From Opitutales bacterium (lineage in GTDB: Bacteria > Verrucomicrobiota > Verrucomicrobiia > Opitutales > UBA953), in the NCBI GenBank assembly GCA_017440935.1, contig JAFSAO010000018.1, positions 1 to 64,000 on the forward strand: a stretch of 64,000 nucleotides of DNA, given 5' to 3'. Shown here piece by piece: positions 34,336 to 52,834 of this stretch. Within the stretch, counting starts at the first letter, position 1; every line of letters starts with the position of its first letter. Both the position numbers and the translations under genes were made by a program. The notes under the pieces were generated by a model, which was not told the DNA's origin, made no database searches, and saw only the letters and a program-made list of their open reading frames with translations.

Positions 34336-34359
34336 ATTTGAAGTCTCATACAAATCAAG

Positions 34360-34782: not shown

Positions 34783-35853
34783 TTTAAAAATAAGCTCTCC
34801 TGTCAGGAGCTTTTCAATTTGTCCGTATTTGTATCGACTTGAACTTGGCGTATCTAATTGTGTCGAGTTTAGGAGGTAGGCTTCGAATTGGTTTTTATAA
34901 AAAATGTGATAGCAAAGTACTTCTCCGTCTTCCCGTACGACGAGATAGCCTCCTGTCGCTTCAAATTTTCCGTCCCACTCTGTTTTGGGTTTCAGTCCGA
35001 GTGCGATATCAGAGAGAAGGCGTTTAATCTTATGGGAATAAAAATTTTTCGAGCTATTACATGGAAAGTTTAGCGAGTTTTCTTTGTCCATGCGTGAGGA
35101 GATGTCCGAAAGAGAGCTATTCCCTTTTGTATAATGTTCCAAAAGAGCGTAGGCTAAAATTGGGGGGAGCCACCCGTCGACCATCAATAAGTTCTGCTCG
35201 AAAATCGGCGATTCAAGTCTCAGAAACTCCAAAGATCCTCCTTTTTCGCCTATTTTATCAAGTCGGTCTTTGATTTTTCGGGTTCCGTTTATTGCGTTAA
35301 TCGTGGCAATTTCTTCTTCGGAAAACGTGCATCCTTTTACGAGAAAAATAAAATTTGTTGCCGAGCTTGGATTTAATAAAGTTGGGCGAGATCCGAGTTC
35401 TGACTTGATACTGAATCCGAGAAGCGGTGTCAGCCCTGTAAAGACATCGTGAACGATAATTTTAATGTCAGTTTTATCTTTGGAAGATGCTTTGATGGTG
35501 GAGCAATGAATTTTGCCCATGAAGTCTTCCGTTTCTGGGATAGGGAATGCGGATTTATTTTTAGGCGATTTTAGCTCATTGAGCAGAAATTCAGCTTGAG
35601 ATTTGAACGTTGAAAATGGGATTCTACACAGAAGTTCGTTGCTCCCGTTATAAATACAGACGTTTTGAGAATCTTTTATTGAGTTGTATTTATATTTTTT
35701 TTCTTTTTCTTCTCTTAGGATTTCTATAATCGGCAAAAATACTTTTGCGATTTGATCGGGATTTTCATCCCCGATCGGGAGGCGTTTTTCGCTCAGAAGT
35801 TTAAATAGGGTGTAGATCTCACTCCATTCACCCTTATTGGCTGTTAGTGACAT
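34756..35853 (-). CDS. HpaII-family type II restriction endonuclease
   Basis: 365 residues from ATG 35853, where the protein begins MSLTANKGEWSEIYTLF, the family's starting motif. The core GFSIKSELGSRPTLLNPSS is a hallmark of HpaII-like enzymes, and SIKSELG carries the PD-(D/E)XK-type S-x-K. The expected target is CCGG, cut within or next to the site; this is inferred from family membership. It is the last gene of a minus-strand operon with the 217-residue nuclease (20-base overlap) and the methyltransferase. The DNA is AT-rich with no CGGGAACG copy, pointing to recent arrival. Confidence 0.88.
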   Translation of the reverse strand: MSLTANKGEWSEIYTLFKLLSEKRLPIGDENPDQIAKVFLPIIEILREEKEKKYKYNSIKDSQNVCIYNGSNELLCRIPFSTFKSQAEFLLNELKSPKNKSAFPIPETEDFMGKIHCSTIKASSKDKTDIKIIVHDVFTGLTPLLGFSIKSELGSRPTLLNPSSATNFIFLVKGCTFSEEEIATINAINGTRKIKDRLDKIGEKGGSLEFLRLESPIFEQNLLMVDGWLPPILAYALLEHYTKGNSSLSDISSRMDKENSLNFPCNSSKNFYSHKIKRLLSDIALGLKPKTEWDGKFEATGGYLVVREDGEVLCYHIFYKNQFEAYLLNSTQLDTPSSSRYKYGQIEKLLTGELIFKLNLQIRFK

Positions 35854-36487
35854 GTCTATTAATTCTCTCTGAGGTGATATGGGTGCCGGAGACGATTTCA
35901 ACTTGTTCTGAAAGTGCGTATGTGCGCTGCTTCAAGTCGAAGATTAATTGATTCATCTCGGGTGACGTGCAGAGTATTACTTTGTCTAGACCGATGATGT
36001 CTCCATCCGCTATTTTTTTCTTCGTGGTAGCGTATTCTTCTTCCGAAAGTGTTAGTAGAAAGCACCTCGCTTTTCTGTGCACATACTTAAGGGCAATTGC
36101 TTCCAAGTCCGCTTGTTTGTAGCGTTCACGAAGGCTTGTTTTCATAGAAAAAGCAATAGGTCCAATTTCTTTCGAGTACAAGATGCTGTCATACTCAACA
36201 TTGGGAACAAATGCGACCTTCGCTTGAATGTATAGAGGGAGTAAATTTTCTCGTATAAATAGAGTTTGGATAATGTACTCGAAGATTGTTCCGTTCAGAC
36301 TGTTCGTATTCTTTGTGTTCGCAAAAGCCGATTTTTTATATTGTTCCCAATACTTTGCGATGTATTCGCATGGATATTTATATTCAATATCGAAAAAGGA
36401 TTTTTCCCCAAATAGACTTTCAAAAATAGACGAAGCCTTTGCTTGCTTTTTAATGAGTCCTACTTCTTTCAATACACTTCTGCGCAT
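35834..36487 (-). CDS. Second restriction-type nuclease with K-x12-E active site
   Basis: 217 residues. The core is VEYDSILYSKEIG, then IAFSMKTSLRERYKQADLEA. D100, K116 and E129 give D-x15-K-x12-E, the rearranged PD-(D/E)XK site seen in the SsoII/Ecl18kI/EcoRII group, whose members bind CC-based sites. The TSLRERYKQ wording matches the TTCKDRWRQ stretch of those enzymes position by position. It overlaps the HpaII-like gene by 20 bases and follows the methyltransferase after 3 bases, so one transcript is likely. The nuclease call rests on the motif alone; the protein might instead help the HpaII-like enzyme. Confidence 0.6.
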   Translation of the reverse strand: MRRSVLKEVGLIKKQAKASSIFESLFGEKSFFDIEYKYPCEYIAKYWEQYKKSAFANTKNTNSLNGTIFEYIIQTLFIRENLLPLYIQAKVAFVPNVEYDSILYSKEIGPIAFSMKTSLRERYKQADLEAIALKYVHRKARCFLLTLSEEEYATTKKKIADGDIIGLDKVILCTSPEMNQLIFDLKQRTYALSEQVEIVSGTHITSERINRHVTNSQ

Positions 36488-36490
36488 ATT

Positions 36491-37795
36491 TTATTTCCCC
36501 AAATTAAGTCCTTTCAAGATTTGTTTTGCCGTCGCTTGGATTGCGGGAACGGCAACGGAGTTTCCGAATTGTTTGTAGGCAGAAGCATCGGCGACCTTGA
36601 TTCGGAAAGAATCAGGGAATCCTTGGAGCCGAGCCCATTCGCGCGGAGTCATGCGGCGAATTCCTTCGCGGTTCACTTCTCCTTTGATATTTGTCTTTGG
36701 AGTGAAATCCGTTAGGCGATTATCGATGACAAGATTGCGTTCCCGTCCCATACCGCCGACAACGATTGCATTGGAACATTTATTATCGCTGATGATTTCG
36801 TAGCCGAATCCGTTTCCTTTGTTTGCGTGACGTTCTTTGTGTGCGATAAGCGTTTTAAGGTACTGCGTTGAAAGGTAGTATTTTGAGCTAACAACGTCCT
36901 TTTCCTTAACATCTGCAAAACAAACTTTTTTTTCTACGGGTTTCGGATAGTCAAATTCGGCGATTCCAAGGTCGTTTCTGAAACCGACGATATAAATGCG
37001 TTCCCGATGTTGAGGTACACCGTAGTGCATGGCGTTTAGGATTTGCGGCGCGGGAACGTAGTATCCGAGATCGCGAAGCGTGTTCAAGATAACTTCGAGA
37101 GTTTTTCCTTTATCGTGGCAAACAAGACCTTTGACGTTTTCGAGGAAGAACGCTTTGGGTTGCTTGCGGCGGAGAATTTCGGCAACGTCGAAAAAGAGCG
37201 TACCGCGAGTTTCCTCAAATCCGCGTCGTTTCCCTGCGAGGGAGAATGCTTGGCAGGGGAATCCGGCGCAGAGGATGTCGAAATTGTCGGGAATGAATTG
37301 CTTGGTTTCTTCCTTGGTGATGTCTCCGAAGGGAATTTCGCCGTAGTTGGTTTCGTAGGTTTTGGAGGCTTGGGAGTCCCACTCGGAGGAGAAAACGCAT
37401 TTGCCGCCGAGGTTTTGCATGGCGATGCGGAAACCGCCGATTCCGGCGAAGAGGTCGATGAAGGTGAATTTTGCTTTTTTCGGCGGCGGGAACGGGACAT
37501 CGAAGAGTTCCGGAAAAAGGATTTGTGGCGGAGCTTCGGATACAGTTTCGTCGGTCGCTTTTTCCCCTTCGAGAATTTTGAGCGCGGCTGACTCAAACGG
37601 CTTTGCGAACGGTGTTCCGAGGGTTTGTGCCCAGTGGGAAAGGACGGCTTTTTGTTCTGCGGGAACGTTGAGGGAGTGCAGATTCAGTTTAGGGAGAAAG
37701 GATTTTGCCTTTGCGGAATTTGCGGGAATCCAGCGATCTTTGACGGCGGCGGGAACGCAGGCTTGTTTTTTGTAAGGATTTTTTCGGGGACTCAT
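36491..37795 (-). CDS. dcm: DNA (cytosine-5-)-methyltransferase
   Basis: 434 residues. Motif I FIDLFAGIGGF (112-122), motif IV AGFPCQAFS with the nucleophile C181, motif VI FFLENVKG (217-223), motif VIII QHRERIYIVG, motif IX/X RMTPREWARLQGFPDSF and FGNSVAVP are all present. The first 105 residues before motif I are an extra, Lys/Pro-rich extension. It is the first gene of the operon with two nucleases and probably protects the HpaII site CCGG. Unlike the nuclease genes it contains about seven CGGGAACG copies, so it may have been in this genome longer. Confidence 0.93.
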   Translation of the reverse strand: MSPRKNPYKKQACVPAAVKDRWIPANSAKAKSFLPKLNLHSLNVPAEQKAVLSHWAQTLGTPFAKPFESAALKILEGEKATDETVSEAPPQILFPELFDVPFPPPKKAKFTFIDLFAGIGGFRIAMQNLGGKCVFSSEWDSQASKTYETNYGEIPFGDITKEETKQFIPDNFDILCAGFPCQAFSLAGKRRGFEETRGTLFFDVAEILRRKQPKAFFLENVKGLVCHDKGKTLEVILNTLRDLGYYVPAPQILNAMHYGVPQHRERIYIVGFRNDLGIAEFDYPKPVEKKVCFADVKEKDVVSSKYYLSTQYLKTLIAHKERHANKGNGFGYEIISDNKCSNAIVVGGMGRERNLVIDNRLTDFTPKTNIKGEVNREGIRRMTPREWARLQGFPDSFRIKVADASAYKQFGNSVAVPAIQATAKQILKGLNLGK

Positions 37796-37951
37796 CGGAG
37801 GAAATTTTACCGACAGAGTATTCCGGGAAAGGCGTGAGTTGTCCGGGGGATTTTTTCATTCCCGCGGGAGCGGGATAAATCTCTCGCGCTTTTTGTTAGA
37901 TTATCCGCAATCGTTCGCAAAAACTTCTTTCTGTGCCGCTTATATTAAGAT

Positions 37952-38215
37952 ATGGAAAATTCAGAATCACAGATCGCGAAATTGGGATATTTTTTCGGAA
38001 AATTTTTGAGAGAACTTTCGGAAGGAAGTTCTGAAGCAGAGATTACCCGCGTCGAATTAGAGGCAGAGTCGTGGAAAGAAGTCATTAATCGATGTATTCC
38101 TTCTCCGGCGGTGCGAGAGGAGCTTAAGCATTCTATTCATGTTTTATGTGAACGCAGGAAAGCAGAAATCCGTGCGTTATTAGCAAGTCGGAACACGATG
38201 GGAGTGTTTTTCTGA
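37952..38215 (+). CDS. Small hypothetical protein
   Basis: 87 residues, mostly helical and acidic with a hydrophilic profile and no membrane segment: FGKFLRELSEGSSEAEI, then SPAVREELKHSIHVLCERR. No family recognised. It is transcribed away from the methyltransferase gene. The start has no obvious ribosome site beyond AAGATATG. Real but unassigned; its place beside the restriction-modification block might mean a linked regulator. Confidence 0.45.
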   Translation: MENSESQIAKLGYFFGKFLRELSEGSSEAEITRVELEAESWKEVINRCIPSPAVREELKHSIHVLCERRKAEIRALLASRNTMGVFF

Positions 38216-38664
38216 GGCGACAACAGCGCTTGATTTTTTGTCTCCGTTGCTGCGACCGTCAGCGTACCCATCTCCAATCCCTTTGTTGAAGCGGGAACGG
38301 ATGAAAATTCAGTTGTTAAGTATTTCTTTACAACTACAGCAGGCAGAATAAATCTCTCGCAGAGTGCGCGGAGAACGCAGAGTGGTTTTGGTTGGGCGAG
38401 TTTAATTTATCCGTGGGAATCGGTGTAATCCGTGGCTGAAAATTGCAGAATATTTCAATTTGTTTGACATTGTTTCGGGATAAAAGACGCTCCCGTCCAC
38501 ATCCCTCCATTGCCTCCGGCTTTGGACATACGGGCAACCTCTTTGGGCGTGCCCGTATTTTTTTATGTGCGAAAGGCGATTTTTCTTCTCAAAACGGGAA
38601 ATAAATAGACAGGTCCCGTGGATGGGGTTTATATTGAACTCACTCTGAACTGGCTTCCCAAAAG
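38216..38664. other. 449-base intergenic region with repeats and a terminator-like hairpin
   Basis: No gene seen. It holds one CGGGAACG copy (38292), two text-like repeats (GCAGAGTGCGCGGAGAACGC near 38358 and ATCCGTGGGAATCGGTGTAA near 38409) and a hairpin with T run at 38528-38564. The repeats resemble wordings at 48470 and 51340. A short non-coding RNA ending at the hairpin is possible but unproven. Confidence 0.5.
38528..38564 (+). terminator. Terminator-like hairpin in the intergenic region
   Basis: ATACGGGCA at 38528-38536 pairs with TGCCCGTAT at 38550-38558, followed by six T. There is no coding gene directly upstream; the last, at 37952-38215, ends 312 bases before. Confidence 0.55.
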
Positions 38665-39438
38665 ATGAATTGCTATTTCCTATTTTTATTAACCGCTAGT
38701 GTTTTTGCCATTTGCGGATGTGTCAGTAACCACTATGAGGAATATTATGTTGCGAATATTCCTGCGGGAACGGAGCGGGTAAAGAAAGAGGAGGTTCGTC
38801 TTCGCTTCTCGTCTTGCGAAGAAGAAGATTTGGAAGACGAGTTTGTTGCTCTGATTGAGGACGGGTATGAATTAGTTGGGGAAAGTGCGTTTTCAGCAGT
38901 ACATTGTCCTTGGGTTTGCGCAATTGATTTGGCAGAAGATATCGGTGCGACGCTTGTCGTTTTTAGGGAGAAGTTCTATAGAAGTAAAACCGTTCGGGGC
39001 GTTACATACGCTCCGTCGACTTCTTATTCGTACACAAGCGGGACGGTAAGCGAATATTCAGCGACCGGAGGTTATGTTAGCGGAAATTATAGCGGATACA
39101 CCCGAAATACAACGCTTCAGGCGATCCCGTACGTGGAAGAAGTGGATTACTACAATCAATACGGCTTCTTTTTCAGGAAGAGGAAAATGAGCAAGGATTT
39201 TTACGGTGTAATATTAGCGTTCCCGCAGTTTTTGCCGGGCGATAGTGATTCGGATGAAATTGAAGTACGGATCGCTGCCGTCGTAAAAGGGACTCTCGCA
39301 GAAGGTGCCGGGCTACGGCGGGGTATGCTTGTTGATAGGATAAACGGAGTTCCGATCAGGACAAAGGGGGATATAAAGCCGTTTGCGACAGGACGTGAAA
39401 ACATCGTTAGCGTTTCTGAAAGAAAGGAATCCGAATGA
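38665..39438 (+). CDS. Lipoprotein with PDZ-like C-terminus
   Basis: 257 residues. Lipoprotein signal with FAICGC (Cys about 19). A Ser/Tyr/Thr-rich stretch (about 105-160, TSYSYTSGTVSEYS) may be a flexible linker. The end has AEGAGLRRGMLVDRINGVPI and DIKPFA, the classical pattern of a PDZ loop and strand, so a PDZ-like peptide-binding domain is likely. No protease motif is seen. Its stop overlaps the next lipoprotein start by ATGA, so the two are coupled. Contains canonical CGGGAACG copies and looks resident. Confidence 0.65.
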   Translation: MNCYFLFLLTASVFAICGCVSNHYEEYYVANIPAGTERVKKEEVRLRFSSCEEEDLEDEFVALIEDGYELVGESAFSAVHCPWVCAIDLAEDIGATLVVFREKFYRSKTVRGVTYAPSTSYSYTSGTVSEYSATGGYVSGNYSGYTRNTTLQAIPYVEEVDYYNQYGFFFRKRKMSKDFYGVILAFPQFLPGDSDSDEIEVRIAAVVKGTLAEGAGLRRGMLVDRINGVPIRTKGDIKPFATGRENIVSVSERKESE

Positions 39439-40055
39439 AAAAGAACATTTTCACATTCGTGTTTTTATTCGGCATTGGAGCTTTGCTTTCCGGATGCTTG
39501 TCGTATTCTCGCGGATATTGCGACAGCACGGTTTTTCGGCGGAAAAATCTGAACGAAACGCAAAAATATCCAATCACTTTTTCCGTTGATTATATCCAAG
39601 CGGACTTTGTGGAGCGACCGTTGAACGGAGATAATGATATAGGTTTTAGAGATGCACTAAGAAAAGCGTTGGAGGAAACGGGTCTATTTTCTTCTGTCCA
39701 ATATGAGCGCACCGCATCGGATGATTCGTATCATATCGAATTTCGGGTTTGGCGATCGGGAACGGATCAGGCGACTTCAGCCGGAGCGGGGGCCGTATGT
39801 GGAGGTACTTTGTTCCTGATTCCTGCCGGAGTGGATGAAACATTGGACGCAAGTGCCAATATCGTCTTAAGAAACAAAACCCTAGCGAGTTTCGGGAAAG
39901 CCGAAAGCGTGCGCACGGTTTATTGGCTTCCGCTTTTGCCGTTTTGCATCAGTCCGATAATTACGCACAACTATGTCGATGGGAAGGTCGTGGATTCGTT
40001 GGTAAACGAAGTCGCGAAATTCCATTACGAACAATTCGTTTTAAAGGAGCAATAA
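39435..40055 (+). CDS. Lipoprotein of unknown function
   Basis: 206 residues. Signal with lipobox LLSGC (Cys about 21). The mature part has GFRDALRKALEETGLFSSV, a pattern seen in small outer-membrane lipoproteins such as those with a BON- or DUF-like alpha/beta fold, then IEFRVWRSGTDQATS. The later stretch AGAGAVCGGTLFLIPAGV is hydrophobic. I do not recognise the family. Translationally coupled to the PDZ-type lipoprotein, so the pair probably acts together at a membrane. Confidence 0.55.
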   Translation: MKKNIFTFVFLFGIGALLSGCLSYSRGYCDSTVFRRKNLNETQKYPITFSVDYIQADFVERPLNGDNDIGFRDALRKALEETGLFSSVQYERTASDDSYHIEFRVWRSGTDQATSAGAGAVCGGTLFLIPAGVDETLDASANIVLRNKTLASFGKAESVRTVYWLPLLPFCISPIITHNYVDGKVVDSLVNEVAKFHYEQFVLKEQ

Positions 40056-40459
40056 ATTCGCGGAAACGGCAAGTGGGGCGAGGGCGATTTTGTGGGAATC
40101 TACAAGTCACACAAGTTTCACGAATAGTTTCCGGACGAGGATATTCTTTTTTAGGTTTAATGGGCGGAGGGTTTAAATCTTCGGAAAATAGTATTGGGAA
40201 GATAAGATTTCTTACGGATTAGGTGTTGTCGGTGCACTAAATTTCAATTTGACAAAATTTCGGAGGCGTAAAAAATCTCTTCCCGTGATTTACGAATTTC
40301 AACGACTTAGTCGGACAACGCTTCTCCCCTGAGGGGAGTGGCAATTTTTTAGCGGGGCGGCGACCCGGTTTTGTTTTTCGCCGTTTTTCTTTTCTTTGCG
40401 GAAAAATTCCGCATTTTTCCTATACCCGAAATTTTTAATTATTTTATTTATTCTTTTTT
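40056..40459. other. 404-base leader region of leuA without recognised genes
   Basis: Nothing coding is convincing. It holds a half-copy of the AAATTTCAATTTG hairpin family (40236), a strong small stem CTCCCCTGAGGGGAG near 40325 and a T-rich stretch before leuA. An attenuator or promoter region of leuA may lie here, but no leader peptide with Leu codons or T-box was identified. Confidence 0.4.
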
Positions 40460-42136
40460 ATGCAACATAACGAAATCACGAAATATTCCGCGTTCCCGCA
40501 GGTCGATATCAAAAATCGCCGTTGGCCGGACAACCGTATCGAAAAAGCGCCCGTGTGGTGTAGCGTCGATTTGCGCGACGGGAATCAGGCGCTCGCCGTG
40601 CCGATGAACGTCGAAGAAAAAATCGAAATGTTCAAGATGCTTTGCGATATCGGTTTTAAGGAAATCGAAATCGGGTTCCCGTCGGCATCGGATACGGAAT
40701 TTGCATTCGCGCGTGCGCTCATCGAGAAAAATCTGATTCCGGACGACGTTACCGTGCAGGTGCTCGTTCAGTGCCGCGAGCATTTGATTCGCCGCACGTT
40801 TGAAGCTCTGCGCGGCGCGAAACAGGCAATCATTCACATTTACAACTCCACATCGCCGCTCCAGCGCCGTATCACTTTCGGGAACGCGTCGAAGGAACAG
40901 ATTAAACAAATTGCCGTCGACGGTGCGCAACTTGTCAAAACCCTTTTGCCGGAGGCGGGCGACACCAAAATCCGTCTCGAATACTCTCCGGAAAGTTTTT
41001 CCGACACCGAAGTCGACTACGCCGTCGAAGTTTGCGAAGCCGTCATGGATGTCTGGCAACCGACGCCGCAGAACCCGATCATTCTCAATCTGCCGGAAAC
41101 CGTTCAATGGACGACGCCGAACGTTTATGCCGATATGATTGAAAAATTCTGCGGAATGATCTCCCGCCGCGACAGCGTAATTATCTCCCTGCACACGCAC
41201 AACGACCGCGGCACGGGAACGGCAGCGACGGAGCTCGGGCTCATGGCGGGCGCGGATCGCGTCGAGGGAACGCTTTTCGGGAACGGCGAACGCACGGGTA
41301 ATTTGGACATCGTGAACGTTGCGCTCAATATGTATACACACGGGATTGAGACGGGACTGAAATTTGACGATCTTCCCGCGATTCGCGAAGTTTACGAACG
41401 TTGCACGCGCATGACGATTCCCGCGCGTCATCCTTACGCGGGCGACCTCGTTTATACGGCGTTCAGCGGTTCTCACCAAGACGCCATCAAAAAAGGTATG
41501 GATGCCCGCGGTAAACTCGGCGGCGACGCTCCGTGGCACGTTCCTTACCTGACGATTGACCCGACGGATGTCGGCGCAACCTACGAAGCTATCATCCGCA
41601 TCAATTCCCAAAGCGGAAAGGGCGGCATCGCCTACATTCTCGATCGCGACTTCGGTATTGATTTGCCGAAACTGATGCACCCGATTGTCGGGCAAGTCAT
41701 CGGCGGCGTGGCGGACAAGCTCGGTCGCGAGCTTTCCCCGAAGGAAATTCACGACGAATTCCAGGCGCGCTTTGTCAACGTTGCGGAACCGTTGAAACTT
41801 CGTTTTTTTGAATCCAATTCGGAAAACAAACCGATTGTTTCCTGCTCGGCGGAAGTTTTGTATCAGGGAAAAGAATACAAGATTTCCGGAAGCGGGAACG
41901 GGCCGATCAACGCATTCGTTAAAGCAATCCACGCTCAGGGATGGAAAAACTTTACGTTGCGCGATTATCGTTCGCACGCAATCGGAACGGGATCGGCAAC
42001 GGAATCCGCAGCGTATGTTTCGATTTCCCGCGACAGCGACGGAAAAGTCTTCTGGGGTTGTGGTATCGACACGAATATTGAACTTGCGGGCTTGCTCGCG
42101 CTCGTTTCCGCGTTCAATCTTTCGCGCCGTATTTAA
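40460..42136 (+). CDS. leuA: 2-isopropylmalate synthase
   Basis: 558 residues. Condenses acetyl-CoA with 2-oxoisovalerate, the first step of leucine synthesis. The LeuA/DRE-TIM signature is VWCSVDLRDGNQAL (33-45) with the metal-binding Asp in LRDG. Further on are LHTHNDRGTGTAATELG, GTLFGNGERTGNLDI and the C-terminal regulatory domain (from about 420) ending ISRDSDGKVFWGCGID. The length fits the long LeuA2 clade found in actinobacteria and PVC bacteria, which makes its identity secure. Ends at the terminator at 42164. Confidence 0.95.
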   Translation: MQHNEITKYSAFPQVDIKNRRWPDNRIEKAPVWCSVDLRDGNQALAVPMNVEEKIEMFKMLCDIGFKEIEIGFPSASDTEFAFARALIEKNLIPDDVTVQVLVQCREHLIRRTFEALRGAKQAIIHIYNSTSPLQRRITFGNASKEQIKQIAVDGAQLVKTLLPEAGDTKIRLEYSPESFSDTEVDYAVEVCEAVMDVWQPTPQNPIILNLPETVQWTTPNVYADMIEKFCGMISRRDSVIISLHTHNDRGTGTAATELGLMAGADRVEGTLFGNGERTGNLDIVNVALNMYTHGIETGLKFDDLPAIREVYERCTRMTIPARHPYAGDLVYTAFSGSHQDAIKKGMDARGKLGGDAPWHVPYLTIDPTDVGATYEAIIRINSQSGKGGIAYILDRDFGIDLPKLMHPIVGQVIGGVADKLGRELSPKEIHDEFQARFVNVAEPLKLRFFESNSENKPIVSCSAEVLYQGKEYKISGSGNGPINAFVKAIHAQGWKNFTLRDYRSHAIGTGSATESAAYVSISRDSDGKVFWGCGIDTNIELAGLLALVSAFNLSRRI

Positions 42137-42163
42137 GAATTCGATACTTATTTGTCGCAAAAA

Positions 42164-42199
42164 AACCTCGAAAGCTCATTCGGCTTTCGAGGTTTTTTT
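42164..42199. terminator. Bidirectional terminator between leuA and comEC
   Basis: Perfect 12-base stem AACCTCGAAAGC (42164-42175) and its complement at 42183-42194, 7-base loop, A run before and T run after. The flanking genes converge here. Confidence 0.92.
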
Positions 42200-42215
42200 A
42201 TGCCGGGGAAGGCAA

Positions 42216-43961
42216 TCAGTAGGCGAAAATCAGAAGAAAAACGGCGAGTGTGAGCGGCGGAAGCACAAATCGAAGAACCGGGCGTTCCCGCAGTTGCGGC
42301 AAAATTTCTCCGAAGAAGAAAAGCGCAAACAGAAGCAAACTTCCCGCAATACCGAATGCGTAGTGCGGGAACGAGAGTTCCGCTACACCGGGAATTTTTG
42401 AAAATATTTCCGTGCCGAAATCGATAACTGCCAGAGGAAACGCCGCGACGTTAAAAAGGAGTTTTCCGAGCATTTCGCCGCACCACGGGAAACAAGCAAG
42501 CACGAGCGCGCCTGCTCCGAGCCACGCCGCGAGCGAAACGAGAGGAATCAGCACGACGTTTGCCGCGAGCGAAACGAACGAGCAAATTCCGAACATCGCC
42601 GTGACAATCGGCGTCCCCGCAAGAAACGCCGCCATCGAAATGCACGTTCCGGAAACGACGCTGTCGCGAACTTTTGCAAACATTTTTTGCGGGAGCGAAA
42701 CAACTTGGCGCGGCAACCAGCGTTCCGTGTCAACTGCATTCCCCGCGACTTCCGCCAGAGGAATTCCGTAGAGCAAAATCGCCGCAACAACCAAATACGA
42801 AAGGCGAAATCCCGTGTCGTTCAGCACCGTCGGTTCCGCCAGCAACGCAAAAAATGCCGAACAAATCAGCCCGTGAAACGCCATGCGTCCGCGTCCGAAA
42901 ACCGTTCCGAGAAACAGGAAGACCAGCATTGCCCAAGCACGCATTGCGGACGGCGGCGCACCGACGATTTGTGTGTAGACCCAAAGTGCGCCGATCGCCA
43001 CAAGCCACGCGGGCAGGCGCGGCACGCGGAATGCGCGGAGCAGGGCGAGCGCTCCCGCCGCAAGAATGGAAACATGCAAGCCGCTGACGGCGAAAATGTG
43101 CATCGTTCCCGTGAGCAGAAAATTCGTTTTTTGTTCGGGCAAAAGCAGGGAGCGGTCGCCGAGCAACATCGCACCGAGAACGCGCCCGGCTCGCTCGTGC
43201 CACGCGCTTCCGGCGGAAATTGTGATCAGGTTCTGTCTCAAGTCGGCTTTCGCGTTTGTGCACCAACGGAAGAAAAAGCTGTCGCCGCGCGGGAGCAGTT
43301 TTGCGCTTTCCGTTCGGGAAAATATCGCACTTACGCGTTCCCGTTTCAGGTAGTCGAGAAATTCGCCTTTGAGAAATTCCGTTTCCTCCACGCCGCTGAT
43401 GACGCCGTATGCCCTCAAAACCGCCCCTTCTGCGGGAACGTCTTCCGTGTTTTCAAAAAGTTTTTTCGGAACGGAAAAACGGATGCGCGTTCCCGCGAGC
43501 ACGTCGACTCCTTCTCCGGAAATTTTTTCTGTGCGAGCGAGTCCGCCGAAATTTTTTCCTGCGGAGGCAAACATTTTTTCGATACGAAATTCGATTTCAA
43601 TTTCACGCGGAGATTTTCCCGTCCAATCTTCAAGCGGAGGCGCACGAAAATTCCACCACACGCAGAAGATGAAAAATGCCGCAATCGGAAAACAGATTTT
43701 CCATGCGCCGACAAAAAGCGGAGCTTTTTTCCCGTTTGAAAAAAGATGTTCGCCGGCACTCGCCGCGACGGAGAAAAACAGAAAAAGCGTTCCCGCGAAA
43801 AGCCAGCGTGAAACAGGAATTTCGGAAAACCACGGTGCATTTGCACAAAATGCAAACGCGAGGATTTGCGGAATCAGGAGCCAGAATAACGGAAAATGCG
43901 GGACGATGCGCGCGGCATTCGGCGGCGGCTTCGGGGCGTCGTCGTTCCCGTCAAATTCCAT
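42216..43961 (-). CDS. comEC: ComEC/Rec2-family DNA-uptake channel protein, short form
   Basis: 581 residues. ComEC forms the inner-membrane channel for single-stranded DNA during natural transformation. Present are an N-terminal helical region, an OB-like soluble loop (AVLRAYGVISGVEETEF), and the competence core TGTMHIFAVSGLHVSIL (about 286-297) with VGAPPSAMRAWAML and GFRLSYLVVAA. Eight or more helices follow. The usual C-terminal metallo-beta-lactamase-like domain of longer homologues is absent; the protein ends in a hydrophobic helix. This gene directly supports natural competence in the host, which matters for the dispersed-motif hypothesis. It overlaps no neighbour and is 9 bases downstream of the cyclo-ligase gene. 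Confidence 0.9.
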   Translation of the reverse strand: MEFDGNDDAPKPPPNAARIVPHFPLFWLLIPQILAFAFCANAPWFSEIPVSRWLFAGTLFLFFSVAASAGEHLFSNGKKAPLFVGAWKICFPIAAFFIFCVWWNFRAPPLEDWTGKSPREIEIEFRIEKMFASAGKNFGGLARTEKISGEGVDVLAGTRIRFSVPKKLFENTEDVPAEGAVLRAYGVISGVEETEFLKGEFLDYLKRERVSAIFSRTESAKLLPRGDSFFFRWCTNAKADLRQNLITISAGSAWHERAGRVLGAMLLGDRSLLLPEQKTNFLLTGTMHIFAVSGLHVSILAAGALALLRAFRVPRLPAWLVAIGALWVYTQIVGAPPSAMRAWAMLVFLFLGTVFGRGRMAFHGLICSAFFALLAEPTVLNDTGFRLSYLVVAAILLYGIPLAEVAGNAVDTERWLPRQVVSLPQKMFAKVRDSVVSGTCISMAAFLAGTPIVTAMFGICSFVSLAANVVLIPLVSLAAWLGAGALVLACFPWCGEMLGKLLFNVAAFPLAVIDFGTEIFSKIPGVAELSFPHYAFGIAGSLLLFALFFFGEILPQLRERPVLRFVLPPLTLAVFLLIFAY

Positions 43962-43970
43962 GCGCGGCGG

Positions 43971-44603
43971 TCAGCTGGCGGGAAAAATGCCGCGTTGCGG
44001 CGTAACGAGAAATTGCACGGGAACGTCTTCCGGCGAGTGTGGGATTTCGGGCAGGATTTGGCAATCGTAGGCGAGCCCGAGAGTCGGAATATTTTTCGGA
44101 AGCGTATTCAGAAAGCGGTCGTAGTAGCCTTTCCCGTAGCCGATGCGGTTGCCGTGTTCGTCGAAAGCAACGCCGGGAATCAGGCATGCGCCCGCCGTCG
44201 CGGGATCGACTTCTTCACAACGGTCGTTGGGCTCGAGCACGCCGAAAGTTCCGCGGTCCAAATCGTCCGTCAGGCTTTTGATTTTGAAAAAGCGAATGAT
44301 GTTGCCGTCGACTTTGGGCACGATAACGGTTTTTCCGCTTTCGAGTGCGCGGAGAATGATTCCCGGGGTCGGCATTTCGCTACGCACGGAAACGTAGCTG
44401 CAAATGCAGTCCGCATCGCGAAACGCCGCCCACGAGCGCACGTGTTCCCGCACCTGAAGCGCGTTCAGAAGCACGTCGGAGTAGGGAATGGCATCGCGCA
44501 TCGGCAAAATACGGTAACGCAGTTGCTTTTTGGCGGGTTGGGCTGAAATATCTTCCGGAAGTTCCGTGCGGATAATTTCGCGGCGAATAGGACAACGACT
44601 CAT
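43971..44603 (-). CDS. 5-formyltetrahydrofolate cyclo-ligase
   Basis: 210 residues. ATP-driven conversion of 5-formyl-THF to 5,10-methenyl-THF. The family signature GNRIGYGKGYYDRFLNTL (about 157-174) is complete, with LIPGVAFDEHG just before it. The N-terminal part (RREIIRTELPEDIS) is the usual helical start. It lies upstream of comEC by 9 bases and probably shares the transcript; the pairing has no clear functional logic. Similar fused or neighbouring genes occur beside rny or ssrS in other phyla. Confidence 0.9.
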   Translation of the reverse strand: MSRCPIRREIIRTELPEDISAQPAKKQLRYRILPMRDAIPYSDVLLNALQVREHVRSWAAFRDADCICSYVSVRSEMPTPGIILRALESGKTVIVPKVDGNIIRFFKIKSLTDDLDRGTFGVLEPNDRCEEVDPATAGACLIPGVAFDEHGNRIGYGKGYYDRFLNTLPKNIPTLGLAYDCQILPEIPHSPEDVPVQFLVTPQRGIFPAS

Positions 44604-44664
44604 GGATGAAAAAAAATCGGAATTGGAAACAAGGAACGGGAAATGCGTCTTCCCGGCTTCGTTT

Positions 44665-45069
44665 TTATTTGCTGAATGATTGCTCCAATTTTTCGAGGAA
44701 AAAGCTCGGCGGGCGGATGGCGACGCCTTCGCGGTTCATAAACGCGTGCACCGTGTAGCCGGTGGTGAGCAGTTCGTCGCCGCGCCGCACTTCGTAGTCG
44801 ATACGGATGCGCACGCGCGGGAACGTTTTCATCACGGCGTGCACGGCGATTTCGTCGTCGTATTTGGCGGAATTTTTGTAAGCGCACTGCGCTTCGAGCA
44901 CGGGCAACATATAGCCAGCATCTTGGAGTTCCCGATACGGCAAACCGACTTCCGCCATCAGCTTCGTGCGGGCAACCTCAAACCAGGGGAGATAATTCGC
45001 GTGATAAACGACGCCCATGGCATCGGTTTCCGAAAACCGGACACGGATATTGGCGATTGTCTGAATCAT
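44665..45069 (-). CDS. YbgC-like acyl-CoA thioesterase (4HBT hotdog fold)
   Basis: 134 residues, normal length. Hotdog-fold thioesterase that releases short acyl chains from CoA. The 4-hydroxybenzoyl-CoA thioesterase signature is VRFSETDAMGVVYHANYLPWFE (read as VRFSETDAMGVVYHA then NYLPWFEVART), with catalytic Asp at about 15. YbgC homologues often sit with tol-pal genes; here the neighbours are folate and clp genes. The substrate is not known. A gap of 61 bases separates it from the cyclo-ligase gene. Confidence 0.9.
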   Translation of the reverse strand: MIQTIANIRVRFSETDAMGVVYHANYLPWFEVARTKLMAEVGLPYRELQDAGYMLPVLEAQCAYKNSAKYDDEIAVHAVMKTFPRVRIRIDYEVRRGDELLTTGYTVHAFMNREGVAIRPPSFFLEKLEQSFSK

Positions 45070-45284
45070 CTTTTTCTGAAAAAAACTGTATTGTTGCAGC
45101 GGATTGCCCGTTTGATTGAGCGCAAGAAGTTAGATTTTTCCGTTTCGTGCCGCAATATTTTTTCCCGCGCGGGAACGGCTCGAGGATTTTTTCGCGCCGG
45201 CGGGAACGGTTCCGTTAATTCTCGCTTGAAATGTCGCGGGAACGTTTTAATTTTATCGCCGTTATGATTATGGAGAAAGCACAA

Positions 45285-45644
45285 ATGTCGAAGTTGGTTC
45301 CGGCGGTTCAGTATGAACGCGGAACGATTAAACTTTTCGCAAAATACCCCGCGAACAACAATTTTGTCTGCAGCTACGAAGTCTTTGTCGAAAGCGATAT
45401 TTTCAAGCCGGACAACGGACGCACGGCGTTTATCAATTTCGTGGACGGGCAGACGCTCGAAAAATCGTATTTTGACTACGGCCGCTTTTGCTTCTTTCTG
45501 CCGAAAGCGCTCCAGCCGGTGTTTGACGAAATGCTGACGAAAAACGCGGTCGCACTTTCCGTGCGCTTTTGCGTGGACGGCGGTCGCCCGACGCGCGATC
45601 AGGCCGAAGCGATGTTCGACATTGTTCTCAAAGACAAACTCTAA
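45285..45644 (+). CDS. Hypothetical small cytoplasmic protein
   Basis: 119 residues from ATG 45285, chosen because GGAGAAAG lies 9 bases upstream; ATG 45264 and 45270 are alternatives. A mixed alpha/beta composition with no signal or membrane segment: FVESDIFKPDNGRTAFINF, FCFFLPKALQPVFDEML. No family recognised. Two hairpins follow the stop before clpP, so it may be a separate short transcript. Contains no motif I can tie to function. Confidence 0.55.
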   Translation: MSKLVPAVQYERGTIKLFAKYPANNNFVCSYEVFVESDIFKPDNGRTAFINFVDGQTLEKSYFDYGRFCFFLPKALQPVFDEMLTKNAVALSVRFCVDGGRPTRDQAEAMFDIVLKDKL

Positions 45645-45714
45645 AATCGAACTTTGCCGATCGGCAAAATTCGATTGATTGAAATTTAGCGAACGGGTTC
45701 CGTTCGCTAAATTT
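45645..45714. repeat. Two adjacent hairpins upstream of clpP
   Basis: 45645-45660 pairs with 45661-45676 (one mismatch), and AAATTTAGCGAACGG at 45682-45696 pairs with 45700-45714 across a 3-base loop. They share the AATTT/AAATT wording of the hairpin at 26970. They may end the small upstream gene or lie in the clpP leader. Confidence 0.6.
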
Positions 45715-45787
45715 TGATTCTCGCATGGCACGAAGCCTGCACAGCTGTTCCCGCGAACTTTTTTGTAATATTTTATTAAGGAAAACG

Positions 45788-46429
45788 ATGAGCTACATTA
45801 TTCCCAGCGTTGTTGAGCGCGATGCCCGCGGTGAAAGATCGTGGGACATTTACAGTCGCCTTCTCAAAGACCGGATCATTTTCCTCGGCTCGCCGATTTA
45901 TGACGATGTCGCCAACGCCGTTATCGCACAAATGCTCTTCCTGCAAATGGAAGATCCGAAAAAGGATATTCACATCTACATCAACTCACCCGGAGGAAGC
46001 GTTACGGCGGGGATGGCGATTTACGACACGATGCAGTTCTTGAAATGCGACGTGGTCACGTATTGCGTCGGTATGGCGGCGTCGATGGGCACGGTTTTGC
46101 TCGCCGGCGGAACGAAGGGCAAACGCTACGCGCTCCCGAACTCCAGCGTGATGATTCATCAGCCGAGCGGAGGCGCGGGCGGGCAGGCGTCGGATATTTC
46201 CATCGCGGCAAAAGAAATTTTGCGCTGGCGCGAAACACTCAATCGCGTTCTTGCCAAACACACGGGAAAAACCGTTGAGCAAATCGCCAAGGACTCCGAC
46301 CGCGACCATTACATGACGGCGCAGGAAGCGCTCGCCTACGGGATTGTGGATACGGTGATCAACCCACCCCAAGACAAAAAGGAGATTTCTTCTCCTGAAC
46401 ATAAAAAAGCAGTAAAAGCTACGCTGTAA
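45788..46429 (+). CDS. clpP: ATP-dependent Clp protease proteolytic subunit
   Basis: 213 residues from ATG 45788. Serine peptidase chamber of the Clp machine in the cytoplasm. Catalytic Ser in GMAASMG (S99), His in MIHQPSGG (H124) and Asp in DSDRDHYM (D173). [14 protein letters not shown] and the oligomer handle are typical. clpX begins 2 bases after the stop, so the two partners are coupled. The upstream frame is open for another 21 codons, but the chosen start matches family length. Confidence 0.95.
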
Positions 46430-46431
46430 AA

Positions 46432-47778
46432 ATGGCGAAAGACGAACCTAAGTGCGCGTTTTGCGGGCGTTCCCGCAACGATGTCGGGATTTTGATTATC
46501 GGACCGGACGGCGCAAATATTTGCGACGAGTGTGCGAAGCTCTGCGTCGAAATGACAAATAGCCAAAGTGCACGGAAAAATCCCGCCGCCGAAGAAATGT
46601 CCCCGGCGAAAGTTGCCGACACCGTTTCGAAAATGCGCACGGAAAAAAAGCCGGACGCGGAGCCGCTGAAGCCGATTGCGCTCAAAAAACCGTCTGAAAT
46701 TCGCGCTACGCTCGACGATTATGTTATCGGGCAGGAACAGGCGAAAAAAGTGCTTTCCGTTGCCGTTTATAATCACTACAAGCGCTTAAACGACAAACTT
46801 TTCGGGGGCGCCGCCGCTACGGGAACGGCATCCGAAGTCGTTCCCGCCGCCGATTTGAAAAACGTCGAAGTCGAAAAAAGCAATATTCTCGTCATCGGTC
46901 CCACAGGTTGCGGGAAAACGCTTCTTGCACGAACGCTCGCGCGTGTGCTCGACGTTCCGTTTGCCATCGCGGATGCAACGACACTGACTCAAGCCGGCTA
47001 TGTCGGCGAAGACGTGGAAAACATTCTCGTCCGCCTCCTGCAGGCGGCGGACGGCGATGTGCAACGCGCCGAAACAGGAATTGTTTACGTCGACGAAATC
47101 GACAAAATCGGGCGTAAGAGCGATTCCGCCTCGGTCACGCGCGACGTTTCCGGAGAAGGCGTTCAACAGGCGCTTTTGAAGATTATCGAAGGTTCGGTTT
47201 GCAACGTTCCTCCGAACGGCGGGCGCAAGCATCCCGACCAGAAGTATGTTCAGATTGATACTTCAAATATTCTTTTCATCTGCGGCGGCGCTTTTGTCGG
47301 CTTGGAACGCATTATCGGATCGCGCATCGGCAATAAATTCCTCGGTTTTGACACTTCCGTCGAAACCGGAAAGGAACTCTCCGCCGAGCAAATTATGGCG
47401 GAACTTCAGCCGGAAGACCTTTTTGAGTTCGGTATGATTCCGGAGTTTGTCGGGCGCCTTCCGATTGTTTCTGCGCTTTCGCAACTTGGCAGAAAAGACC
47501 TTGAGCACATTCTGACGCAACCGAAAAACGCTTTGATCAAGCAATACCGCAAACTGCTGGCGCTGGAAGGTGTGGAACTTGTTTTTGAAGATGATGCCGT
47601 TTCCGCCATTGCCGAAAAAGCAATCAAACTCGGCACGGGCGCACGAGGGCTACGTTCCATTCTCGAAAAAATTATGCTCGAAACGATGTATGAACTGCCG
47701 AATCGCGGGAACGCCAAGCGCGTCGTGATTAACGCCGATGTCGTTTCCGGAAGCGCGCAACCGCAAATTTCGGGTTGA
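46432..47778 (+). CDS. clpX: ATP-dependent Clp protease ATP-binding subunit ClpX
   Basis: 448 residues. AAA+ unfoldase that delivers substrates to ClpP. The N-terminal zinc domain has C8, C11, C31 and C34 ([15 protein letters not shown]). Walker A GPTGCGKT lies near 155, with [15 protein letters not shown] as Walker B and the sensor region [15 protein letters not shown]. The family's ClpX-specific insertion with LPPEILRHRP-like regions is replaced by species-typical sequence and the protein ends without the usual acidic tail. Directly after clpP with a 2-base gap. Confidence 0.96.
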
Positions 47779-47810
47779 GGCTCTTTCCCCCGCGCAGGGT
47801 TTTCGCGTGT

Positions 47811-48431
47811 TCAGTTCGTGCCGTCGAATTTCGGCATTGTGATTTCCGTGCCGGGCGCGTCGGATTGGTTGATGCCTTCGCGTTTCACGACTTTGAGCGC
47901 CGTCAGAAAAAGAATTTTTACGTCGAGCGCAAACGAAACGTGGTCCACATACCAAACGTCCAACTCAAATTTCTTTTTCCACGAAATGGCGTTGCGTCCG
48001 TTGGTTTGTGCCCAGCCCGTGACGCCCGGACGAATCTCGTGGCGGCGCGCCTGCTCCGGCGAATAGAGCGGCAAATATTCCGGAAGAAGCGGACGCGGGC
48101 CGATAATCGACATATCTCCTCGGAGAATGTTGAAAAGTTGCGGTAATTCGTCGAGTGAGCTTTTCCGGAGAAATTTTCCGACACGCGTCATCCGCTGATG
48201 GTCGGGCAAGAGCGTTCCCGCAACGTCGCGTTCGTCCGTCATGGTTTTGAATTTAATAACGCGGAAAATTTTCCCGTTTTTCCCGGGGCGGGCTTGCGTG
48301 AAGAAAATTCCGGCGCCTTTGTTGGCGAAGTGCAGGGCGACGGAAACCGCGAGGAGAATCGGAGAAGTCGCAATCAGCACACAGAGCGCGAGAGTGAAAT
48401 CCAGAAAACGCTTGAAGAAGTTTTTATACAT
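47811..48431 (-). CDS. Bacterial sugar transferase (initiating undecaprenyl-phosphate transferase)
   Basis: 206 residues from ATG 48431. Transfers the first sugar phosphate to undecaprenyl phosphate in polysaccharide synthesis at the inner membrane. One N-terminal helix (FTLALCVLIATSPILLAVS) is followed by FRVIKFKTMTDERDVAG, KSSLDELPQLFNILRGDMS and IGPRPLLPEYLPLY, the WcaJ/PglC-like core with the DE pair (SSLDE) and the PRPLLPEY motif. The short length is that of the stand-alone PglC-like catalytic unit. No polysaccharide cluster adjoins it, so the pathway is open. It is convergent with clpX. Confidence 0.9.
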   Translation of the reverse strand: MYKNFFKRFLDFTLALCVLIATSPILLAVSVALHFANKGAGIFFTQARPGKNGKIFRVIKFKTMTDERDVAGTLLPDHQRMTRVGKFLRKSSLDELPQLFNILRGDMSIIGPRPLLPEYLPLYSPEQARRHEIRPGVTGWAQTNGRNAISWKKKFELDVWYVDHVSFALDVKILFLTALKVVKREGINQSDAPGTEITMPKFDGTN

Positions 48432-48449
48432 TTTAGTAGCGCGGCAGAA

Positions 48450-48550
48450 AAACAAAGGAACCGCAAATTAACACAAATGAACACGAATTTTATTTGGCGG
48501 ATTATTTACTGCCGGTTCATTCGTGTTAATTGGTGTTTATTCGCGGTTTC
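48450..48550. repeat. Text-like inverted repeat between the sugar transferase and proS
   Basis: AACACAAATGAACACGAAT and its near-complement ATTCGTGTTAATTGGTG are separated by about 30 bases and flanked by ACCGCAAATT and GCGGTTT. Wording like this also occurs at 26834 and 38402. Confidence 0.6.
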
Positions 48551-48559
48551 TGTTTATTA

Positions 48560-50089
48560 TTAATACGATTTCGCGAAGACGACGCGGCGCGGGGACGGCT
48601 CGCCGGAGAACGGGCAAATGCCGGGCTCGGGCGGGAACTCCGTGTCGTCGAGCGGCACGCAACGAATCGTCACGTTCAAATCCGCCTTGATTTGCGCTTC
48701 GACTTCCGCCGAGCCGTTCCAGTGGCAAAGCGCGAAGCCGCCGTGCACTTCCGGTTTGTTTTTGTTTTTCGGCGTGAAAAATTCGTAAAATTCTTCCTTC
48801 GTGTTGATTTCGCGCATGTTGTCGGCGCGGAATTTTTTCGCACGCGCAAGCAGATTGTCTTGAATTTCCTGAAGTTTCTGCGGGAGCGTGGCGACAAATT
48901 CGTCGCGCGGGAACGCCGCTTTTTCGCCCGTGTCGCGGCGACCGACAAAGACTTTGCCTTCGGCGATGTCGCGCGCGCCGACTTCGACTCGCAGCGGAAT
49001 GCCTTTTTTAATCCAGCCCCAAGTTTTTTCGCCGCCGCGCAAATCGCGATCGTCAATGGAAACGAGAATCGGGCGCCCGTCGTAGCGTTGCGCGAGAATG
49101 TCTTTTTTCAAGGCTTCGCAGTAGGCGAGCACGTCGCCGCGTTGCGCGGGATCGCGGTAAATCGGGAGAATGACGACGTGTTGCGGCGCGAGGCGCGGCG
49201 GGACGACCATGCCGTCGTCGTCCGCATGCGTCATAATCATGCCGCCGATGAGGCGCGTGGAAACGCCCCACGACGTCGTCCACGCGTGCTGGAGCGTTCC
49301 CGCTTCGTTTTGGAACTGAATGTTGCAGCTCTTGGCAAAATTTTGTCCGAGGAAGTGCGACGTTCCCGCCTGAAGTGCCTTGCGGTCCTGCATCATGGCT
49401 TCGATGCAAAGCGTATCGACGGCGCCCGGGAAGCGTTCCGAGGCGGTTTTGTGCCCGCGAATAACCGGCATTGCCATGTAGTTTTCGGCAAAATCCGCAT
49501 AAACGTCGAGCATTTTGCGGGTTTCTTCTTCGGCTTCTTCGGCGGTGGCGTGAACGGTGTGTCCTTCCTGCCAGAGAAATTCCGCCGTGCGCAGAAAGAG
49601 GCGCGTGCGCATTTCCCAGCGGACGACGTTTGCCCATTGATTGACGAGGATCGGCAAGTCGCGGTAGCTCTGCACCCACTTGGCGTAAGTCGCGCCGATG
49701 ATGGTTTCCGACGTCGGGCGCACGATGAGCGGCTCTTCGAGTTCACCCGCGGGAACGAGCTTGCCGCTTTCGTCGGCGGCGAGGCGCGAGTGCGTTACAA
49801 CGGCGCATTCCTTGGCGAAACCGTCCACGTGCTCGGCTTCTTTTTCAATGAAACTTTTCGGAATAAACAGCGGGAAATACGCGTTCACGTGGCCCGTCGC
49901 CTTAAAGAGCGCATCGAGGTCGCGCTGAATATTTTCCCAAAGCGAATAGCCCCAGGGTTTGATGACCATGCAGCCGCGCACCGGCGAATTTTCGGCGAGA
50001 TCGGCGGCCTTGACGACCTGTTGATACCACTCGGGATAATCTTCGTCCCGACGCGGAGAAATAGCGGTTTTTGCAGCTTTAGCGCACAT
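48560..50089 (-). CDS. proS: Prolyl-tRNA synthetase, archaeal/eukaryotic type
   Basis: 509 residues, the length of the ProS type without editing insertion. Class II motifs are visible: YFPLFIPKSFIEKEAEH, LIVRPTSETIIGATY (motif 2 area), RWEMRTRLFLRTAEFLWQEGH, and motif 3 GGMIMTHADDDG. The C-terminal zinc-like domain typical of archaeal ProRS ends KSY. This clade occurs in many bacterial lineages, including PVC members. Monocistronic; the 5' side is followed by a motif-pair hairpin at 50220-50250. Confidence 0.93.
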   Translation of the reverse strand: MCAKAAKTAISPRRDEDYPEWYQQVVKAADLAENSPVRGCMVIKPWGYSLWENIQRDLDALFKATGHVNAYFPLFIPKSFIEKEAEHVDGFAKECAVVTHSRLAADESGKLVPAGELEEPLIVRPTSETIIGATYAKWVQSYRDLPILVNQWANVVRWEMRTRLFLRTAEFLWQEGHTVHATAEEAEEETRKMLDVYADFAENYMAMPVIRGHKTASERFPGAVDTLCIEAMMQDRKALQAGTSHFLGQNFAKSCNIQFQNEAGTLQHAWTTSWGVSTRLIGGMIMTHADDDGMVVPPRLAPQHVVILPIYRDPAQRGDVLAYCEALKKDILAQRYDGRPILVSIDDRDLRGGEKTWGWIKKGIPLRVEVGARDIAEGKVFVGRRDTGEKAAFPRDEFVATLPQKLQEIQDNLLARAKKFRADNMREINTKEEFYEFFTPKNKNKPEVHGGFALCHWNGSAEVEAQIKADLNVTIRCVPLDDTEFPPEPGICPFSGEPSPRRVVFAKSY

Positions 50090-50219
50090 AATTTTTTGAA
50101 GAAAGTTTTTCGTGAATAAAGTTCGCTAATCTATCTGCGTTCCCGCGTAAACGCAAGCACGCCCGAACCGAAGACGGAGATTTGGCGCGATTTTGCGGGT
50201 CTTTCTTAAAATAAAAAAT

Positions 50220-50250
50220 GTTCCCGCAGACGGTTTCTCCATGCGGGAAC
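50220..50250. repeat. Head-to-head CGGGAACG-type pair in the proS/cysK intergenic region
   Basis: GTTCCCGCA at 50220-50228 pairs with TGCGGGAAC at 50242-50250 over a 13-base loop, with A-rich flanks. It resembles the two motif-built terminators but lacks a long T run, and it lies between the divergent starts of proS and cysK. Confidence 0.65.
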
Positions 50251-50332
50251 GGAAAAATGGATTGACCCGACGAAACGTCGAGTCTACAAAACCGGACGAA
50301 TTTAGTAGTTTTTAAAATAACGTTTTACGTCT

Positions 50333-51253
50333 ATGAAAATTGCAAACAACATTCTTGAACTTATTGGGAAAACACCGCTCGTGCGGCTGAACACGGTAAC
50401 GCCTCCGGGCGCAAATGTTTTGGCAAAATTGGAATTTTTGAATCCGTCCGGTTCCGTGAAAGATCGCGCCGCGCTCGCGATGGTTGAGGACGCGGAAGCG
50501 AAAGGCTTGCTGAAAAAAGGCGGCCTGATAATCGAACCGACCAGCGGGAATACGGGAATCGGACTTGCGCTCGTCGCCGCCGTGAAAGGCTACCGCCTGA
50601 TTTTGACGATGCCGGACACGATGAGCCTTGAACGGCGCAAATTCCTTGCGAGCTTCGGTGCGGAACTCGTTTTGACGGACGGCACCAAGGGCATGAAAGG
50701 CGCCATCGAAAAAGCGCTCGAGCTCAAGCGGCAGAATCCCGATGCGTTGCTCCCGCAGCAGTTTGAAAATCCGGCAAATGTCGACGCTCACTTGAAAACG
50801 ACGGCGGAGGAAATTTGGAAAGACACGGACGGGAGCGTGGACATCGTGGTCGCCGGTGTCGGGACGGGCGGAACGATTACGGGAATCGGGCGTGCTTTGA
50901 AAGCGCGAAAACCGGATGTGAAAATCTTTGCCGTCGAACCGGAAACCTCGCCCGTGCTTTCCGGCGGGAACGCCGGTCCGCACAAAATTCAGGGTATCGG
51001 TGCCGGATTTATTCCGAAAATTTATGACGCAGGTGTGGTCGACGGCGTAATTCGCGTTTCGGACGACGATGCGGGCACGACGGCACGACGGCTCGCCAAG
51101 GAAGAAGGTATTCACACGGGAATTTCGGCGGGCGCGGCAACGTTTGCAGCGCTTACGCTTGCGGCGAGGCCGGAGAATGTTGGCAAAACAATCGTCGTAA
51201 TTATTCCCGACACGGGAACGCGCTATTTATCCACTTGGCTTTACAGCGAATAA
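50333..51253 (+). CDS. cysK: Cysteine synthase A
   Basis: 306 residues. PLP enzyme forming cysteine from O-acetylserine and sulfide. [10 protein letters not shown] has the PLP lysine K43, [13 protein letters not shown] (68-80) the substrate loop, and [13 protein letters not shown] the phosphate site. Ends STWLYSE. Length and motifs are standard. It is convergent with an Rrf2 regulator, and Rrf2 proteins such as CymR control cysK in several bacteria, so a regulatory link is plausible. Confidence 0.95.
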
Positions 51254-51267
51254 GCGTTCCCGCGAAA

Positions 51268-51301
51268 AAAAATCGGCGATTAGAGGTTGCCGATTTTTTT
51301 T
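51268..51301. terminator. Terminator between cysK and the Rrf2 gene
   Basis: Stem AAATCGGC (51270-51277) with GCCGATTT (51289-51296), 11-base loop, seven or more T after and A before. A single CGTTCCCG copy precedes it. Confidence 0.82.
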
Positions 51302-51320
51302 CGCGTGCATTTTTAACAAC

Positions 51321-51755: not shown

Positions 51756-51987
51756 GGGTCCTCCAATAATATTAATTTACGGTTTGTTGCGGATAAATGA
51801 ATGATAGTTGCAAACTTCGGGAAAGATTATCGGGTCGAAATGTCTACCGAGTCAATAAGAAAAACCGTCGCAATGCGCATAAATACAGGCGAAGCGGAGG
51901 ATGCTCTAAAATTAGAACACTTCGCGGGAACGAAAACAAATCAGCGCGATACACTTCTGTATGTATACGGTAAAAATAAAACCGATG

Positions 51988-52033: not shown

Positions 52034-52036
52034 AAA

Positions 52037-52124
<88 letters not shown>

Positions 52125-52771: not shown

Positions 52772-52777
52772 ATCCGG

Positions 52778-52817: not shown

Positions 52818-52834
52818 TTTTTGAAATTCGGTTC

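Follow-up and report, generated by a model that had tools for sequence, protein, structure and literature searches.

The window, a 64,000-nucleotide stretch of an Opitutales bacterium assembly (G000; 1,835,357 bases in 22 contigs, 98.12% complete), carries a comEC gene that contains the sole match to PF03772 in the genome. The gene and the two domains of its product are placed as follows.

42216..43961, minus strand: comEC, two-domain form (OB fold and channel, without the MBL domain), open reading frame of 581 aa
43281..43634, minus strand: OB-fold region of ComEC, residues about 110–227 (model strands 119–223; VIA-align)
42315..43169, minus strand: channel domain PF03772, residues 265–549, with the metal motif H-x4-SG-x-H at 288–296

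An earlier note on this DNA had described a ComEC without the C-terminal metallo-β-lactamase-like (MBL) domain, and Pfam, NCBIfam and an AlphaFold2 model agree on this. PF03772 (Competence) covers residues 265–549 with an E value of 1.9e-46 (159 bits, against a cut-off of 23), no other Pfam family matches the protein at E ≤ 0.001, and the NCBIfam ComEC_Rec2 match spans only positions 131–337 of the 663 in the profile, leaving its C-terminal part unmatched. The model, for which 33 sequences were aligned and whose mean pLDDT is 86.5, consists of N-terminal helices, a five-strand barrel at residues 119–223 and membrane helices that run through the last residue, with no alpha–beta MBL domain. The Pfam search gave no match to PF13567, although an OB fold is supported by the model and by structure alignment: VIA-align places residues 110–227 on many OB folds, with a best Z of 8.2 over 93 residues, a value that can reflect a common arrangement. 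Foldseek of the whole model against the PDB returned no match at E ≤ 0.001; 9iew, a ComEC OB domain, came up with an E value of 0.54, and the full-length ComEC chains of the PDB, found by sequence, are absent among the Foldseek matches listed. The metal motif reads HIFAVSGLH, and H288, S293, G294 and H296 are invariant in the aligned relatives. The dN/dS ratios of comEC (0.171 for G000/G093 and 0.149 for G038/G111) and of DprA (0.206 and 0.201 for the same species pairs), all within 0.15–0.21, indicate that both are under purifying selection. The window open reading frame is an intact ComEC in which the MBL domain is the only one missing.

This form is widely shared. PF03772 is present in 91 of 103 sampled Opitutales genomes, and an HxHxDH-type MBL metal motif occurs in none of the 118 ComEC loci of the order, a set that includes some contigs fetched twice. 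Among the 111 loci with both stops inside the locus, the open frames range from 356 to 731 (median 565) and 110 contain HxxxxSGxH, which is followed by 242–386 residues, against 285 in the window protein. In one order genome, comEC is seemingly interrupted by stops, with PF03772 in two pieces (G048:C30:98836-99664). By these counts, the two-domain protein is the normal form of ComEC in the order Opitutales and the window protein is ordinary. ComEC proteins without the MBL domain have been published for Helicobacter pylori (PMC5031224) and for Chlamydia, as CT339 (PMC6686042), and variants that lack either domain are also in print (PMC12455585). Like H. pylori ComEC and C. trachomatis CT339, the Opitutales proteins have the N-terminal loop and the HxxxxSGxH channel with the C-terminal MBL absent (PMC5031224, PMC6686042); unlike them, the MBL-less form here spans a whole order, and its part in transformation is putative. 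A two-domain ComEC throughout an order raises the question of which nuclease removes the second strand.

The earlier note had pointed to a secreted nuclease and a pseudopilin in the window, both of which are there, together with an MBL hydrolase.

23121..23855, plus strand: SNase-domain nuclease with a signal-peptide-like N terminus (PF00565, E 2.7e-21)
27029..27709, plus strand: GloB-like MBL hydrolase, not of the ComEC MBL type (profile search and inspection)
27750..28430, plus strand: GspG-like pseudopilin, exact start uncertain (within 27231–28430)

The hydrolase directly precedes the pseudopilin (27029–28430). The genome matches PF00753 (MBL) in six places, and the search for a separate ComEC C-terminal domain that the note had suggested found no such partner among them. 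Two of the six proteins are presumably beta-CASP-like and two presumably other hydrolases, names that we gave from sequence alone. One ComEC-MBL-like protein (G000:C20:128497-129342) matches TIGR00361 at E 3.6e-9 and PDB ComEC chains at E 0.0008–0.008. By eye, a membrane protein and an HsdS-like (type I restriction specificity) open reading frame come immediately before it. Of 52 order genomes only G000 has this protein, which was judged accessory and rejected as a ComEC partner. Its locus (L178 54-2283) may hold a defence gene.

Other transformation and pilus genes are well represented. DprA is present in 59 of 61 family genomes and, like ComEC and a PilB–PilT–PilB cluster, in all eight genomes of the genus; a secretin is present in seven of the eight and was not found in G119. 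In G000, PilM and the secretin are present and PilC adjoins the PilB–PilT–PilB cluster (profile search, G000 only). The note had named a genome without further competence genes as the outcome that would refute it, and these genes show otherwise. Its proposal that the competence core is intact needs a qualification: the ComEC channel, DprA, PilB, PilT, PilC, PilM and the secretin are present, but no short PF12836 (HHH_3) protein that could be ComEA scores above the cut-off in any of the eight genus genomes. Each of these genomes has one strong PF12836 match, inside an open frame of 773–831 aa that we take to be Tex. The same search found no short ComEA in most genomes of the order, with short-frame matches in a few (for example, G022, G032, G040, G046 and G008), and a loss of ComEA as a trait of the genus was rejected on this ground.

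The description of the genome as motif-rich also held. A scan with no motif chosen beforehand put CGTTCCCG/CGGGAACG first among the 8-mers of the window, at 163 sites where an order-2 Markov model predicts 8.6.

1338..63894 (first to last), both strands: CGGGAACG copies, 163 (91 on plus, 72 on minus)
42283..42290, minus strand: CGGGAACG copy in comEC, one of eight

The copies in comEC start at 42283, 42366, 43104, 43336, 43433, 43488, 43788 and 43943. Direct inspection of CGGGAACG against CGTTCCCG shows that the motif is not palindromic. The whole G000 genome holds 5,274 copies in 1.84 Mb, on both strands, about 62 times the 85 copies of the reversed control, which gives a density of about 2,870 per Mb or roughly one per 350 bp. 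Five of the seven other genus genomes hold 5,192–6,550 copies (G119 6,161; G038 6,550; G093 5,434; G068 5,322; G111 5,192), and the motif is weak in the remaining two (G115 1,362; G123 546). Outside the genus, all 99 sampled order genomes have 4–639 copies, mostly near their reversed controls; the highest count is in G042 (639 against a control of 168). The enrichment is thus specific to the genus, and sampled stretches of sister genera showed no comparable 8-mer of their own. In the G123 stretches, the most over-represented words are CCACCAACC-type repeats.

The placement of the copies indicates what level they act at. In 193 kb of G000, 370 of 489 sites lie in called genes and 119 elsewhere, and the density is 2.45 per kb in genes against 2.81 per kb outside, by simple gene calls that overlook part of the genes. 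Enrichment is found in every one of the six strand-frame registers, at about 5–15 times (25–108 observed against 2.6–14.6 expected from synonymous-codon shuffles), which argues against codon usage; CGGGAACG acts at the DNA level. The gaps between copies fit an exponential (CV 0.97), as for random spacing, and pairs less than 60 bp apart are inverted in 32 cases and direct in 33. Chi and KOPS sites show an orientation bias relative to replication. Orientation of CGGGAACG is unbiased in 33 stretches of the six rich genomes (chi2 25.5, P 0.82) and between strands assigned by GC skew, a proxy for the leading strand (925 against 968 sites, P 0.33), which argues against Chi or KOPS.

The motif is also strongly conserved. 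Between G000 and G093 (105 kb, 89% identity), 470 of 574 instances are conserved (0.82, against 0.43 for GC-matched 8-mers), and between G038 and G111 (49 kb, 92% identity) 228 of 263 (0.87 against 0.55), each conserved site being counted once per species. Interspecies identity rises at the first base and falls after the eighth, giving a sharp 8-bp unit. In all eight genus genomes a purine usually precedes the motif, with G preferred at −1; this base is conserved no more than its neighbours. One-mismatch forms of the motif are in excess.

Part of the window is poor in the motif, around a restriction system.

31843-34335, plus strand: AT-rich AAA gene beside the HpaII-like system
34360-34782, plus strand: Vsr
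34756-35901, minus strand: HpaII-like restriction endonuclease
35834-36487, minus strand: open reading frame between the endonuclease and C5 methylase genes
36491-37795, minus strand: C5 cytosine methylase (HpaII methylase)

The region 31843–38664 has 9 sites against 18.4 expected, and six AT-rich window open reading frames (6,060 bp) have none. As a sign of recent transfer, this lack of sites was judged mixed evidence and not proof: the methylase gene carries seven copies and the endonuclease gene none. Avoidance of HpaII as the cause of the scarcity of C before CGGGAACG was rejected, given the G preference at −1 in all eight genomes; CCGG is only mildly rare in each of them. Elsewhere in the window (6177–7810), an RHS-repeat open reading frame is followed by one with ankyrin repeats.

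Within the genus, trees of the pilus proteins, ComEC and DprA group G000, G093, G038, G111 and G119 together, with G068, G115 and G123 on the other side; where a tree includes outgroups, these lie between the two. CGGGAACG is also the top 8-mer in G115 (O/E 5.9) and reaches an O/E of 44 in G068. The excess of one-mismatch forms compared with that of perfect sites is 202 against 86 in G115 and 129 against 32 in G123, versus 217 against 461 in G000. Copies that can be aligned to the first group are also the motif there in 13 of 24 cases for G115 and 8 of 14 for G123, counts in which one copy may be scored against several genomes. This reads as a motif that was present in the ancestor of the genus and relaxed in two lineages; alternatively, a weak drive may have arisen independently in G115 and G123. 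As a separate observation, G115 and G123 have T2SS-like pseudopilin clusters (L201 10292-12365; L206 5207-7864) and an extra GspE-like ATPase and secretin; none was seen in the six rich genomes, in a pseudopilin comparison that covered the fetched stretches. The window pseudopilin also occurs in G093 (L044 258-1373).

In our reading, CGGGAACG works at the level of DNA and owes its very high copy number in this genus to some driver, of which sequence-biased uptake is the likeliest. Three classes of such words have been named in print, Chi sites, uptake sequences and HIPs (PMC4390886); with Chi disfavoured by the unbiased orientation and HIPs by the lack of palindromy, uptake sequences or a new class are left. 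That CGGGAACG is a DNA-uptake-type sequence outside the Neisseriaceae and Pasteurellaceae is a tentative proposal, to which we give somewhat less than an even chance. The fuller version, which we hold more tentatively still, is that the genus carries a self-recognition uptake sequence, (R)CGGGAACG, whose origin is separate from that of the sequences in the two known families; it would function in the absence of ComEA and with a nuclease-less ComEC, and would now be decaying in two genus members. In the mechanism that we infer, cells would be competent and biased in their uptake: a type IV pilus component, the putative receptor, would bind DNA carrying (R)CGGGAACG, which would then be taken in with the help of PilT retraction and the secretin. 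The OB fold of ComEC would hold the DNA as the channel passes one strand, and the other strand, if degraded, would be cut by a nuclease other than ComEC. DprA and RecA would then recombine the incoming strand, by which copies of CGGGAACG would spread and be repaired.

Like the DUS of Neisseriaceae and the USS of Pasteurellaceae, CGGGAACG is short, non-palindromic, present in many copies in equal orientations and limited to a lineage, with an excess of one-mismatch forms and with genes for type IV pili and ComEC in the same genomes. Unlike them, it occurs in Verrucomicrobiota, measures 8 bp, recurs about every 350 bp, is randomly spaced with no clear non-coding preference, and is found without a detectable ComEA. 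Several of these points count against uptake. Known uptake sequences are reported to lie at even intervals and to be more frequent in non-coding DNA (PMC1939737), and the random spacing and hardly higher density outside genes, the absence of two reported though not strictly defining properties, weigh against this reading. So do the lack of a PF12836-detected ComEA in all eight genus genomes, the secretin not found in G119 and the lack of preference for closely spaced inverted pairs. Moreover, presence of the machinery and abundance of the motif do not go together: ComEC, DprA and the type IV pilus motors are equally present in G115 and G123, both poor in the motif, and most order genomes that lack it have ComEC.

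The density, at or above the upper end of that reported for HIP1 (300–2,700 per Mb, PMC4390886), was likewise counted against uptake and leads to an alternative that is live, though less likely than uptake: that some process within the cell, methylation-coupled mismatch repair for instance, generates and maintains CGGGAACG, with no connection to uptake or ComEC. Random spacing, about equal density inside and outside genes, the sharp 8-bp limit and machinery that does not follow the motif within the genus would all fit such a process, and CGGGAACG resembles cyanobacterial HIP1 in being an 8-mer of similar density that is weak in some relatives (PMC4390886). However, known HIPs are described as palindromes tied to cognate orphan methyltransferases (PMC4390886), whereas CGGGAACG is asymmetric.

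That CGGGAACG is a directly selected protein-binding site for chromosome organization, replication or recombination (for a nucleoid protein, or Chi-like or KOPS-like) is improbable: genome-wide spread and strong conservation would suit it, but the orientation bias of Chi or KOPS is missing, and copies that recur about every 350 bp, in every reading register, are packed much more tightly than such sites would be expected to be. Even less probable is that ComEC and the pilus genes are kept for a role other than transformation, such as twitching or the use of DNA as food, with the motif of other cause; the failure to find ComEA with PF12836 speaks for it, and the purifying selection on ComEC and DprA, and the presence of both in all eight genus genomes, against it. 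Finally, that the short ComEC and the motif belong together, as the earlier note had hinted, in a single adaptation that combines MBL loss with separate nucleases and sequence-specific uptake, is very improbable and largely refuted: the two co-occur in G000 and a secreted SNase lies in the window, but the short form is order-wide, the motif boom is absent from all 99 genomes outside the genus, and no conserved MBL partner was found. Because motif-free relatives have the same short ComEC, it does not account for CGGGAACG; the ComEC form and the motif are two separate things.

The interest of the locus lies in CGGGAACG and not in ComEC. Titles and opening lines of abstracts yielded no literature on this motif or on uptake sequences in Verrucomicrobia or Opitutales, and the Neisseriaceae and Pasteurellaceae are described as the only families known to discriminate by uptake sequence (PMC12616744). 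If CGGGAACG is not an uptake sequence, it would be a non-palindromic counterpart of HIP1, which is named in none of the literature titles or opening lines of abstracts searched. If it is one, the two proteobacterial families would be joined by an independent third lineage from a different phylum. Why uptake sequences evolve is debated, and the graded series within one genus (546, 1,362 and 5,192–6,550 copies) would then let the idea of molecular drive be tested comparatively.
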